From Acidobacteriota bacterium (GTDB lineage Bacteria > Acidobacteriota > Terriglobia > Terriglobales > Acidobacteriaceae): 64,000 bases of DNA. The DNA lies in the NCBI GenBank assembly GCA_013289765.1, contig JABCZI010000003.1, forward strand, positions 186,001-250,000. The letters are read 5' to 3'. The position numbers and the translations under genes were made by a program. The notes beneath the pieces were generated by a model, which was not told the DNA's origin, did not search any database, and was given only the letters and a program-made list of their open reading frames with translations. Below, in pieces: positions 3,880 through 25,409 of this stretch (position 1 is its first letter; every line of letters begins with the position of its first letter).

Positions 3880-5118
3880 ATGAAACGCATACGCTACTCC
3901 AAATACGTTCCCGACCCCGCCGGCGAAATGAGCATGGAAGACCTGCTCGGAGCCCTCTCCGACTACCTGCTGCAGAGCGGCTTCCAGAGCGACATGTGGT
4001 TCGAGATGCCTGAGGGCGAACAAACCCTCGATGACCTTCGCCGCGCCATCGAACAAGCTCTGATGGAAGGCGATCAGTTCGACGATGACATGCGCGAACG
4101 CCTGCAGCAGATGGCGGCCGACGGCGAACTCGACGAACTCATCGAAAAACTGATCGAGCGCATGCAGCAGGAAGATTACATTTCCATCGACCAGCCCCCT
4201 GACCCATCGCGCCCATCCGGCGCCGGTGGCCAACTCGGCGAAAACGCGCCGCAGGCCAAATTCGAAATCACCGACAAGAGCCTGGACTTCCTCGGCTTCA
4301 AGTCTTTGCGCAACCTGCTCGGCTCGCTTGGCAAATCCAGTTTCGGACGCCACGACACGCGCGATCTCTCGACCGGCATCGAAGCCAGCGGCGCCTCCCG
4401 CACTTACGAATTTGGCGACACCCTCAACCTCGATATCACCGCCACGCTTTCGAATGCGATTCAACGCGAGGGCCTCAGTCTCCCGCTCAACATCGAATAC
4501 TCTGACCTGCAAGTCCACCAGTGCGAATATCAATCGTCGTGCGCCACAGTCCTCATGCTCGACTGCTCGCACTCGATGATTCTCTACGGCGAAGATCGTT
4601 TCACTCCCGCCAAAAAAGTCGCCATGGCGCTCTCGCACCTGATCCGCACGCAATATCCCGGCGACTCGCTGTCGCTCGTGCTCTTCCACGATTCCGCCGA
4701 AGAAGTCCCGCTGTCGCAACTGGCCCGCGTCAAGGTCGGCCCCTATTACACCAATACGCGCGAAGGCCTCCGCATGGCGCAACGAATTTTGCAGCGCCAA
4801 CGCAAAGACATGAAGCAGATCGTCATGATCACCGACGGCAAACCTTCCGCCCTCACCCTCGAAGACGGACGCGTCTACAAAAATGCCTTCGGCCTCGACC
4901 CTCTGGTCGTCAGCCAGACCCTGGAAGAAGTTTCGAAGTGCAAGCGCGCCGGCGTTCTCATCAACACCTTCATGCTCGCCTCCGATTATGGCTTAGTGCA
5001 GTTCGTCCAGAAGGTCACCGAGATGTGCCGCGGCAAAGCCTACTTCACCACACCCTACACGCTCGGCCAATATCTGCTGATGGACTACATGTCGCGCAAG
5101 ACGAAAACCATCCACTGA
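3880..5118 (+). CDS. VWA-domain protein, partner of the AAA+ ATPase
   Basis: A 412-residue cytoplasmic protein with a C-terminal von Willebrand A domain (about 215-405). The MIDAS metal-binding motif is Asp-Cys-Ser-His-Ser-Met at about 227-232, with the later Thr in the Thr-Asn-Thr-Arg-Glu segment and Asp in Met-Ile-Thr-Asp-Gly-Lys. The N-terminal half is acidic and helical, with Glu/Asp clusters at about 45-105. Such proteins pair with MoxR or chelatase-type ATPases and bind their target through MIDAS. The target here is unknown. The gene follows the ATPase by 71 nt across a hairpin-forming repeat. The start ATG gives Met-Lys-Arg-Ile-Arg-Tyr-Ser-Lys-Tyr. Confidence 0.88.
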
Positions 5119-22100: not shown

Positions 22101-23474
22101 ATGATCGTGATGAAATTCGGCGGCACTTCTGTGGAGGACGCGCGGGCCATCGAGCGCGTGGCCGCAATTGTCAAAGACCGGTTGCCGCAGAAACCGGTGG
22201 TCGTGGTCAGCGCCATGGCAAAAGTGACCGACACGCTGCTCACCATGGCGCGCGCCGCAGGCGCAGGAGAGCGCAAGACCGCACTGAAGCTTTGCCGGTC
22301 GCTCCAGGAAAGACACTACAACACGGCGAGCGAATTGCTGGGTACCGCGTTGTTTACCGAGTTCCACTCCGATTTGGGAGCCGACTTCGAAGGCCTCGAC
22401 GAACTGTTGCGGGGAATTTCCGCGGTCGGTGAGATCACTCCGCGCACCACGGACCATGTTGCCGCATTCGGCGAAATGCTTTCCAGCAAGATTGTTGCCG
22501 CCGCATTTTCTGCCCACGGATTAAAGGGCGTGCATGTCGACTCGCGCGACGTTCTGGTCACCGACAGCAGTTACATGGAGGCGGTGCCGCAAACCGAAGA
22601 AACCAACCAGCGGTTGCAATCCAAAGTGAAGCCGCTGCTCGATGCCGGCCAGGTTCCCGTGATGGGCGGATTCATTGGCGCGAACCGTGCGGGCATCACC
22701 ACGACCATCGGCCGCGGCGGCTCCGATTTCTCGGCAGCGATTGTGGGCGCGGGCCTGAACGCCGAGCGCATTGAAATCTGGACGGATGTTGACGGTATTC
22801 TCACCACCGACCCGCGTATCTGTCCGGATGCGCGCCGCATCAAGGTAATCAGCTTCGATGAAGCGGCCGAACTCGCATACTTTGGGGCGAAGGTGTTGCA
22901 TCCGGCGACGGTGCTGCCCGCCATTCAGAAAAATATTCCGGTGTACGTGTTGAATTCGCGCAACCCGTCGTGTGAAGGAACGAAGATCACGGCCCGCGCT
23001 CCTCAGGGAAAAAACATTTTCAAGGCAATCGCAGTGAAGAAGCGGATCACAATCGTGGATGTGGCCGCACCGCGCATGCTGCTGGCTCATGGATTCTTGC
23101 GGGCGATTTTTGAGGCCTTTGACCGGCACAGGGTCGCGGTCGATGTGGTTTCGACATCCGAAGTGAGCGTGTCGCTCACGGTCGATTCCAACCATGCCAT
23201 TCCTGCTTTGGCCGCCGATCTGGCTAAGCTGGCGGACGTGAAATACGAGGGGCGGAAGGCTATCATTTGTCTTGTGGGCGAAAGCCTGCGGGACAAACCG
23301 GGTGTGGCCGCGCTGGTTTTTGGCAAGCTGGTGGATAAAAAGATTCGCATGATTTCGCAGGGCGCATCTGAAATTAACCTGACCTTTGTTATTGAAGAAG
23401 ATGAAGTGCCCGAGGTGGTCCAGCGGCTGCACAGCACGTTTTTTGCGGAGCTGGATCCGGATGTATTCGCATAA
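22101..23474 (+). CDS. lysC: Aspartokinase
   Basis: A 457-residue enzyme phosphorylating aspartate, the first step towards lysine and threonine. The kinase domain starts Val-Met-Lys-Phe-Gly-Gly-Thr-Ser-Val and includes Thr-Thr-Ile-Gly-Arg-Gly-Gly-Ser-Asp-Phe-Ser-Ala. The C-terminal third holds two ACT-type regulatory domains (about 320-455), where end-product amino acids usually bind and inhibit. It follows asd and precedes dapB. GGAAG upstream of the ATG may serve as the ribosome-binding site. Confidence 0.95.
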   Translation: MIVMKFGGTSVEDARAIERVAAIVKDRLPQKPVVVVSAMAKVTDTLLTMARAAGAGERKTALKLCRSLQERHYNTASELLGTALFTEFHSDLGADFEGLDELLRGISAVGEITPRTTDHVAAFGEMLSSKIVAAAFSAHGLKGVHVDSRDVLVTDSSYMEAVPQTEETNQRLQSKVKPLLDAGQVPVMGGFIGANRAGITTTIGRGGSDFSAAIVGAGLNAERIEIWTDVDGILTTDPRICPDARRIKVISFDEAAELAYFGAKVLHPATVLPAIQKNIPVYVLNSRNPSCEGTKITARAPQGKNIFKAIAVKKRITIVDVAAPRMLLAHGFLRAIFEAFDRHRVAVDVVSTSEVSVSLTVDSNHAIPALAADLAKLADVKYEGRKAIICLVGESLRDKPGVAALVFGKLVDKKIRMISQGASEINLTFVIEEDEVPEVVQRLHSTFFAELDPDVFA

Positions 23475-23544: not shown

Positions 23545-24237
23545 ATGAACGTCCTCATACTCGGCCGCGGGAAGACGGGATCTCTCGTGGCAGAGGTCGC
23601 GCGCCAGCGTCGACACAACATCCAGGTCGTCGGCTCAAGCGAGAATGCAGGCACCGCCGCTCTTACGCCGGATAAGTTACGCGCCATTGATGTGGCGATT
23701 GATTTCACCGTCCCTACCTGCGTCCTGGCTCACATGGAAGCCTGCGTCCGAGCCAATAAAAACATGGTGGTTGGCACGACAGGATGGCACGGAGAACTAG
23801 ATCACATCCGGAAGCTGGTCGAGGAGCACGGCACTGGATTGATTTACGCAGCAAACTTCTCCATCGGCGTGAATATTTTTCTTGAGGCGGCGCGAGCCGC
23901 AGCAGCTGCGCTACGGCACGATTACACCGGACAGATCTTCGAACGCCACCACGCTCATAAGAAAGACGCACCCTCGGGAACTGCCATTGCCTTACAGCAG
24001 GTTATGCGCGACGCCGGAAAAGATGTGAAAAAGGAAGATCTGGAAATTGTCTCGTTCCGCGAAGGCGATGTGGTCGGCATGCACGAAGTCGTGCTCGAAT
24101 CCTCCGCCGACAGAATCTATTTGTGCCATGACGCCAAATCACGCCAGGGATTTGCCGAGGGCGCGGTACGCGCGGCAGAATGGATTGCCGGCAAGAAGGG
24201 CTTCTACGAATTTAAGGACGTGTGGCGGGAGCTGTAG
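23545..24237 (+). CDS. dapB: 4-hydroxy-tetrahydrodipicolinate reductase
   Basis: A 230-residue reductase of the diaminopimelate route. The cofactor motif is Leu-Gly-Arg-Gly-Lys-Thr-Gly at about 6-12, and the hallmark Glu-Arg-His-His-Ala-His-Lys-Lys-Asp-Ala-Pro-Ser-Gly-Thr-Ala lies at about 132-146. It is somewhat shorter than the E. coli enzyme (273 residues), mostly in the N-terminal half. Next gene dapA follows within 42 nt. Confidence 0.92.
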   Translation: MNVLILGRGKTGSLVAEVARQRRHNIQVVGSSENAGTAALTPDKLRAIDVAIDFTVPTCVLAHMEACVRANKNMVVGTTGWHGELDHIRKLVEEHGTGLIYAANFSIGVNIFLEAARAAAAALRHDYTGQIFERHHAHKKDAPSGTAIALQQVMRDAGKDVKKEDLEIVSFREGDVVGMHEVVLESSADRIYLCHDAKSRQGFAEGAVRAAEWIAGKKGFYEFKDVWREL

Positions 24238-24278
24238 TCAGGCGTTCCCACGCGAGCCCATTCGCGCTATCTTATTAC

Positions 24279-25409
24279 ATGCAACTCCGCGGCTGTGGCA
24301 CCGCCCTCGTCACTCCATTCCATCAGGATGGTTCCATCGACGACGTTGCTCTGCGCAACCTCGTCGCATGGCAGGTGGAATCCGGCATCGACTTTCTCGT
24401 ACCTTGCGGAACCACGGGCGAGACACCCACGCTCACGCACGATGAATGGCTATACGTGATCGAGGCGACGATTGAGGTCGTGGCGGGACGAGTCCCCATC
24501 GTTGCGGGAGCGACTTCGAATTCCACCCATGAAGCCGTGGAAAAAGCCAAGGAAGTTGCTTCGCGGCCCGGAGTCGATGCCATCCTCACCGCTTCGCCTT
24601 ACTACAACAAGCCCACGCAGGAGGGCCAGTACCGGCATTTCAAAGCGATTGCGGAAGCAGTCGGCGACAAGCCAATCATTCTCTACAATGTGCCCGGCCG
24701 CACTGCGGCAAATATCGAACCGGCAACGCTGGCGCGCTTGGCGGAGATTCCAAACATCGTGGGCGTCAAGGAAGCCAGCGGCAACATGACGCAGATTGCC
24801 GAAGCCATCAATGCCGTGCCGGAAACTTTTCTGGTTTTTTCTGGAGACGACGCCGTTACGTTGCCGGTGATTGCGCTCGGGGGCGTTGGCATCGTCTCGG
24901 TGGCTTCGAATGAAATTCCGCACGAGATGGCCGCGATGACACGGGCGGCGCTGAACAACGACTGGGACGTGGCGCGCAGCATCCATCGCAAGTACCTGCC
25001 TTTGATGCAAGCGAACTTCATCGAATCCAGCCCGCTGCCGGTGAAGGCCGTGCTCACGATGATGGGCAAGATCGAAGAGAACTACCGCTTGCCGCTTTTG
25101 CCTATGCGCCGTGACACGCGGTCGAAGCTGCAGAAAATCGCGACCGATGTTGGACTGATTGAGAAGGCTGCGGTGGCAGTGCCCGAAGCGGCGGAATTTT
25201 ACATCTATGAAAACTGGACAGCCGGCCCGCATAAAATCGTGCTGCACCGCGGATCGTGCGGACAATGTAATCAGGGTAAAGGCCGCCCTGCTGGCCATGA
25301 CGCGAATCACGCGCGCTGGCACGGACCCTACGCTACTCTGACCCAGGGCCGCGAGACCGCGCATGGCATGACCGGAGTGCTGATTCGCAGCGAATGCAAG
25401 TGTGTGTGA
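24279..25409 (+). CDS. dapA: 4-hydroxy-tetrahydrodipicolinate synthase with Cys-rich C-terminal extension
   Basis: A 376-residue protein. Residues 1-295 are a normal DapA TIM barrel condensing pyruvate with aspartate semialdehyde: Gly-Thr-Thr-Gly-Glu near 41-45, Tyr-Asn-Val-Pro-Gly-Arg-Thr near 136, and the Schiff-base Lys164 in Gly-Val-Lys-Glu-Ala-Ser. Normal DapA is about 290-300 residues. Here about 75 more follow, with His323, Cys327-x2-Cys330, a Gly-Lys-Gly and Arg-Trp-His-Gly-Pro-Tyr segment, and Cys373-x-Cys375 at the end, suggesting a small metal-binding domain. The ATG at 24279 is used since a longer frame has no DapA homology. Confidence 0.93.
   Translation: MQLRGCGTALVTPFHQDGSIDDVALRNLVAWQVESGIDFLVPCGTTGETPTLTHDEWLYVIEATIEVVAGRVPIVAGATSNSTHEAVEKAKEVASRPGVDAILTASPYYNKPTQEGQYRHFKAIAEAVGDKPIILYNVPGRTAANIEPATLARLAEIPNIVGVKEASGNMTQIAEAINAVPETFLVFSGDDAVTLPVIALGGVGIVSVASNEIPHEMAAMTRAALNNDWDVARSIHRKYLPLMQANFIESSPLPVKAVLTMMGKIEENYRLPLLPMRRDTRSKLQKIATDVGLIEKAAVAVPEAAEFYIYENWTAGPHKIVLHRGSCGQCNQGKGRPAGHDANHARWHGPYATLTQGRETAHGMTGVLIRSECKCV

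Follow-up and report, generated by a model that had tools for sequence, protein, structure and literature searches.

DapA (4-hydroxy-tetrahydrodipicolinate synthase, DHDPS) carries out the committed step of its pathway. Its product feeds lysine and the diaminopimelate of peptidoglycan, and the enzyme is both a drug target and an allosteric model. The dapA gene considered here lies in a 64,000-nucleotide stretch of Acidobacteriota DNA (the window) and encodes a protein that continues well past the usual end of the enzyme. An earlier note had claimed that a new Cys/His C-terminal domain follows a complete DapA barrel. Two questions are raised by this locus, namely whether the added block is a real domain, and what such a domain could do for an otherwise ordinary enzyme.

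The dapA gene and its surroundings

The dapA open reading frame (24279-25409, + strand) encodes 376 residues and ends with the stop codon at 25407-25409. The features of the region are listed below in window coordinates.

22101..23474, + strand: lysC, aspartate kinase (Pfam AA_kinase, ACT_9)
23545..24237, + strand: dapB, dihydrodipicolinate reductase (Pfam DapB_N, DapB_C)
24268..24273, + strand: TATCTT box that lies 5 bases upstream of the dapA start codon and may be the -10 element of a leaderless transcript
24279..25160, + strand: DapA barrel with the usual C-terminal helices, residues 1-294 (Pfam DHDPS, TIGR00674)
25161..25196, + strand: Ala/Pro-rich variable linker, residues 295-306, with low identity and raised dN/dS
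25197..25406, + strand: unnamed Cys/His domain, residues 307-376, with H323, C327, C330, W347, G349, P350, C373 and C375
25476..26357, + strand: dapD-like tetrahydrodipicolinate N-succinyltransferase (Pfam THDPS_N_2, hexapeptide repeats)

Pfam DHDPS covered residues 3-289 of the 376 (E 4.9e-89), and the TIGR00674 dapA equivalog scored 337.5 bits against a cut-off of 206.15, so that the curated dapA model was passed. The protein resembles other DapA/DHDPS enzymes (TIGR00674, PF00701) in its whole barrel, its three usual C-terminal helices and its lysC, dapB and dapD neighbors. The barrel is thus complete. In a group of soil Acidobacteria, DapA carries a real, conserved extra C-terminal domain. 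Translation of the open reading frame placed the His, the Cys and the Arg-Trp-His-Gly-Pro residues exactly where they had been numbered before: H323 (codon at 25245-25247), C327 (25257-25259), C330 (25266-25268), C373 (25395-25397) and C375 (25401-25403), together with the R346-W347-H348-G349-P350 segment. The block of about 75 residues described after the barrel is present, but it starts at F307 and not at residue 300, since residues 295-306 form the linker.

The start codon of dapA was set at the ATG at 24279, because this ATG is common to the relatives; an upstream GTG at 24222 is an alternative on paper only. One true DapA was found in the genome. A second match was partial and 28% identical, and it is probably another member of the superfamily.

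A TATC[TC]T box within 16 bases of the start was present in 69 of 74 fused genes compared to 4 of 43 unfused genes, with L045 counted and L026 excluded. This difference may be caused by ancestry, the fused genes also being the closer relatives. According to an excerpt of PMC3160421, a TANNNT signal is linked to leaderless genes. The TATCTT box fits this signal, and dapA, despite closely following dapB, may therefore be transcribed from a promoter of its own and without a leader. The Rfam search at the gathering score returned one tRNA in the window and no match near dapA.

Conservation, distribution and relatives of the domain

The alignment of DapA from related genomes, which the earlier note had proposed as a check, was based on 118 distinct DapA proteins from loci with a near-complete barrel. 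Among them, 74 were fused to the domain, 43 were unfused, and one was fused with unknown linker residues (L045). One of the 74 fused proteins, L026, is cut by the end of its contig and so misses its first 8 residues. The H-x3-C-x2-C, W-x-G-P and C-x-C motifs were all kept in 73 of the 74 fused proteins, and the sole exception, L129, has Tyr in place of C330. With this pattern, and with a barrel above the family cut-offs, the claim of a new Cys/His domain on a complete DapA was borne out. All 43 unfused family members stop where DapA usually does, 0-16 residues beyond residue 293, in agreement with the earlier statement that a normal DapA ends near residue 295.

Linker length, counted from residue 293, was 9-16 residues in 72 of the 74 fused proteins (13 in L026 once its 8 missing residues were added). 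The remaining two, L127 and L129, have Pro/Ala/Glu-rich linkers of 114 and 108 residues, respectively. Because linkers of such lengths are tolerated, no fixed distance between domain and barrel is needed. No Met occurred in the linker of any of the 74 fused proteins, and an internal ATG start is therefore unlikely. The mean pair identity of the linker was 0.43 among 50 sequences.

Selection was estimated from 50 distinct fused genes; from a set of 52, L045 (containing X) and L078 (shortened by alignment) were omitted. Over the usable pairs, mean dN/dS reached 0.060 in the barrel, 0.350 in the linker and 0.077 in the domain (1181, 765 and 1008 of 1225 pairs, respectively, after saturated pairs were dropped). 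For close pairs, the corresponding means were 0.050, 0.226 and 0.048 (119, 84 and 110 of 119 pairs). The linker is thus about 4.5 to 6 times looser than the barrel and the domain. The equal values of domain and barrel indicate that the two are under the same tight purifying selection, unlike the linker.

The earlier note had named two ways in which its claim could fall, a frameshift joining two genes and homologs that lack the Cys residues. The frameshift was ruled out, as a full-length alignment of 52 distinct fused genes contained no stop, and the Cys residues were kept in all but one of the fused homologs. More broadly, an artefact (two genes brought together by a frameshift or by misassembly, or a tail that evolves neutrally) has a negligible likelihood in view of the identical joint in 74 distinct sequences and the strong purifying selection on the domain.

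Some assemblies were broken inside the barrel at N (L053, L014/L040, L195, L196 and L198), and L045 has N at the linker together with a repeated stretch. In L199 (genome G611), a frame change at about 850-855 lies inside the dapA barrel without any N, and it is either an assembly error or a real lesion. Genome G600 has two full-length fused DapA genes on separate contigs (L202 and L203), each 82% identical to that of the window, which are either paralogs or the product of a mixed assembly. A third match in this genome was weak.

Within the genus, strong domain matches were found in 34 of 37 genomes, and the three genomes without a match are 78-87% complete. A search of the public genome collection matched 48 loci. 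In the family sample, the first profile matched 52 of 150 genomes, comprising 47 strong, 4 distant and 1 marginal match (G426, E 8.4e-4). The 47 strong matches (E <= 4.2e-29, open frames of 276-504 codons) came from the window's genus and 29 other genera, and those whose loci were read are DapA fusions. A wider profile gave matches in 112 of 398 genomes, spread over 33 of the 79 genera. The DapA barrel itself was present in 143 of the 150 family-sample genomes.

Beyond the family, samples of the phylum (297 and 396 genomes) gave matches in family members and otherwise marginal ones, and no relative of the domain was found in viral contigs or the phage collection. Other phyla were sampled through plasmids alone, and two plasmid records with relatives were found there. 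Weak matches in G036, G044, G059 and G006 (L088-L092) were rejected as chance-like, since no reading frame with the Cys/His pattern was found there, and the marginal matches in G310 and G233 carry stops.

The suggestion that the block may occur alone elsewhere proved right, as DapA-free relatives were found at L085, L124, L125, L126, L095 and L087. L126 (genome G465) is a stand-alone protein of 72 residues that shares 28-34% identity with the three fused domains it was compared to. Its neighbors, judged by eye, are a PIN-like protein before and a coaD-like gene after it, and no functional clue was found in this neighborhood. The two plasmid relatives, L095 at about 4013-4204 (Mesorhizobium) and L087 at about 3992-4129 (Bradyrhizobium), are small open reading frames absent from the plasmid gene tables. 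L126, L095 and L087 have the H-x3-C-x2-C and W-[HY]-G-P motifs in common with the fused domain. However, L126 and L095 end with C-x2-C, whereas the fused domain ends with C-x-C, and L087 stops before the terminal Cys pair.

L085 (1486-2358, genome G180) encodes 290 residues with an N-terminal copy of the domain that ends in C-x-C and is 33% identical to that of the window. It differs from the fused DapA in its long tail with a hydrophobic stretch (by eye) and in having no DapA attached. The DapA of G180 itself is unfused (L155). The relatives in genus g228, which carry no DapA, are looser: L124 and L125 are without the last Cys, L204 is without the second Cys, and L205 is short. The four-Cys site is therefore not universal in the family. 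Over 12 aligned rows that included distant DapA-free relatives, H323, C327, C330, W347, G349 and P350 were invariant.

In a tree of 92 barrels built by a quick method, the 49 fused rows needed two changes. When all fused rows were grouped, the tree was not rejected (p-AU 0.683) and scored 17.3 log units above the free one. The domains of L127 and L129 averaged 61% and 58% identity to the other fused domains, and they were 28-32% identical to two DapA-free relatives. A single origin, by one fusion event in the common ancestor of a large clade, would be the simplest reading of these comparisons.

Predicted fold and comparison with known enzymes

The enzyme is known, and the Cys/His domain is absent from Pfam, NCBIfam and PHROGs. 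The window's extension had no sequence match in the PDB, and a PDB sequence search with the domain profile gave one chance match (E 7.7). Ada_Zn_binding (PF02805) and DUF6233 (PF19746) presumably have a His/Cys order similar to that of the extension. PF02805 did not match the extension; it matched the genome once, on contig C13 and outside dapA. PF19746 matched nothing in the genome at E <= 0.01 and nothing in the window's domain at E <= 10, and L095 touches it over 15 residues (E 0.0053, below the cut-off). Single relatives also gave sub-threshold Pfam touches to IN_DBD_C (0.099), DUF4170 (0.15), UPF0547 (1.9) and CdhD (0.14). Among the titles and abstract openings listed in the literature searches, none named a zinc domain or this extra domain on DapA.

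Full-length AlphaFold prediction with 38 fused sequences placed strands at 307-312, 319-324 and 345-351, a helix at 354-363 and a strand at 369-372 in the extension (mean pLDDT 75.7 for the best model and 57-59 for the other four). Prediction of the domain alone gave the same elements, with five models at mean pLDDT 76-77. The loop after C327 was under 50 in both predictions. In this predicted beta-beta-loop-beta-alpha-beta fold, C327 and C330 follow strand 2, and C373 and C375 follow the last strand. Therefore, by the model, the CxxC and CxC pairs could meet on one zinc.

The domain model (pLDDT 77) had no match of note among PDB structures by Foldseek (best E 2.1) or VIA-align (best Z 2.1, rmsd 4.5 over 46 residues), a result that does not by itself make the fold new. 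The full-length model matched DHDPS structures over the barrel, with 38-48% identity to the 50 DHDPS chains listed. The window's protein is unlike the DHDPS of the PDB in length, since the 60 chains listed of the 72 found there have 289-330 residues and here 70 conserved residues lie beyond the usual end. In excerpts of published work, the DHDPS 'C-terminal extension' is the ordinary helical part, residues 232-292 in S. pneumoniae (PMC3281039, PMC3862839, PMC5380162), which differs from the Cys/His domain found here.

The catalytic residues T45, T46, Y109, Y136, R141 and K164 were kept in all 49 fused rows. The numbering is shifted by one, as window T45 is taken to be T44 of E. coli. The catalytic residues are thus intact; the catalytic list for DHDPS comprises Thr, Tyr, Tyr, Arg and Lys in the excerpt of PMC5109050.

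For the lysine site, N81 was kept in 92 of 92 rows and Y108 in 91 of 92. Window residues 57, 54 and 85 presumably correspond to E. coli 56, 53 and 84. Residue 57 was Trp in 48 of 49 fused rows (Arg in one) and in 40 of 43 unfused rows, and it stood opposite His in the 3 PDB chains shown. At E. coli position 56, His or Glu marks lysine-sensitive enzymes and Lys or Arg insensitive ones, as stated in the same excerpt (PMC5109050). Judged by sequence, the Trp matches neither the residues that mark sensitive enzymes nor those of insensitive ones, and since it is found in both groups, the fusion is not tied to this marker. Residue 85 was Asp in 34 of 49 fused rows versus Glu in 31 of 43 unfused rows, and residue 54 was His in 45 of 49 versus 14 of 43. 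These leanings may reflect some tuning of the lysine site in the fused enzymes.

Of the 15 alignment columns in which fused and unfused barrels differ most clearly, 5 fall in the last barrel helix (277, 278, 279, 282 and 285). These five could indicate docking of the domain on the barrel instead of free tethering, and shared ancestry would explain them equally well.

Possible roles of the fused domain

The explanation we favor, at somewhat less than an even chance, is that the extension serves as a tethered, zinc-stabilized adaptor. By one gene fusion, the sole DapA would have acquired a self-contained domain of 70 residues that belongs to an unnamed family of small proteins. This domain would hang on a linker that is flexible in solution. 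The accessory domain is probably zinc-stabilized: a single structural zinc is most likely bound by the pairs C327-x2-C330 and C373-x-C375, close to H323. The stabilized surface would bind a partner or ligand and so place or tune the enzyme, which is the purpose that we infer for the domain, and the barrel's own catalysis would stay as in an ordinary DapA. In favor of this reading are the wide occurrence and strict conservation of the domain, the tolerance of long linkers, the separately folded unit in the predictions and the intact catalytic residues. Against it speak the Tyr for C330 in L129, the incomplete Cys sites in genus g228, the low pLDDT of four full-length models and of the loop after C327, and the separating columns of the last barrel helix.

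We rank a role in binding or recruiting a partner first, followed by assembly and by metal or redox sensing. An assembly or stability domain, which would pack on the barrel or a neighboring subunit and set the oligomer or its stability, seems unlikely. The separating columns of the last helix fall within residues 277-285, near the extension. In an excerpt of PMC3862839, the last residues of the S. pneumoniae enzyme occupy a groove where the tight dimer is formed, so that a C-terminal tail can reach this interface, and DHDPS tetramer architecture varies among species according to PMC5109050. However, the very long linkers of two fused proteins and the low linker conservation speak against such packing. 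Unfused relatives with up to 80.6% barrel identity also do without the domain, and the helix signal is confounded by ancestry. A metal or redox sensor is distinctly unlikely; here DapA activity would be switched when metal shortage or oxidation makes the CxxC and CxC pairs lose their zinc or form disulfides. It would suit the two conserved Cys pairs, and a committed step is a sensible control point; however, the sequence does not separate a sensor from a structural zinc site, and no sensor family was matched in Pfam, NCBIfam or PHROGs.

It is also improbable that the domain alters or replaces the allosteric inhibition by lysine. The differences at residues 85 and 54 fit such a module, but Trp57 is shared by both groups, N81 and Y108 are nearly always kept, and the neighboring lysC has its own ACT domain. 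A nucleic-acid binding domain with a second job such as autoregulation would match a small Cys/His domain that has 8 Lys/Arg versus 4 Asp/Glu in 70 residues, and its H-x3-C and Cys pair outline resembles that of Ada-type zinc domains. This role is nevertheless very improbable, since PF02805 misses the extension though the same search finds an Ada-type match in the genome.

In the boldest reading, an undescribed zinc module that stands alone in soil bacteria was captured once by DapA and made this committed enzyme depend on a new input (metal, redox or partner) in about thirty genera of Acidobacteria; this is unlikely as it stands, though conceivable. A lineage-wide, strongly selected extra domain on the sole DapA would point to a mechanism of control or recruitment beyond the textbook enzyme. 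Furthermore, the fusion offers a first entry point for studying what an unnamed family of small proteins does.
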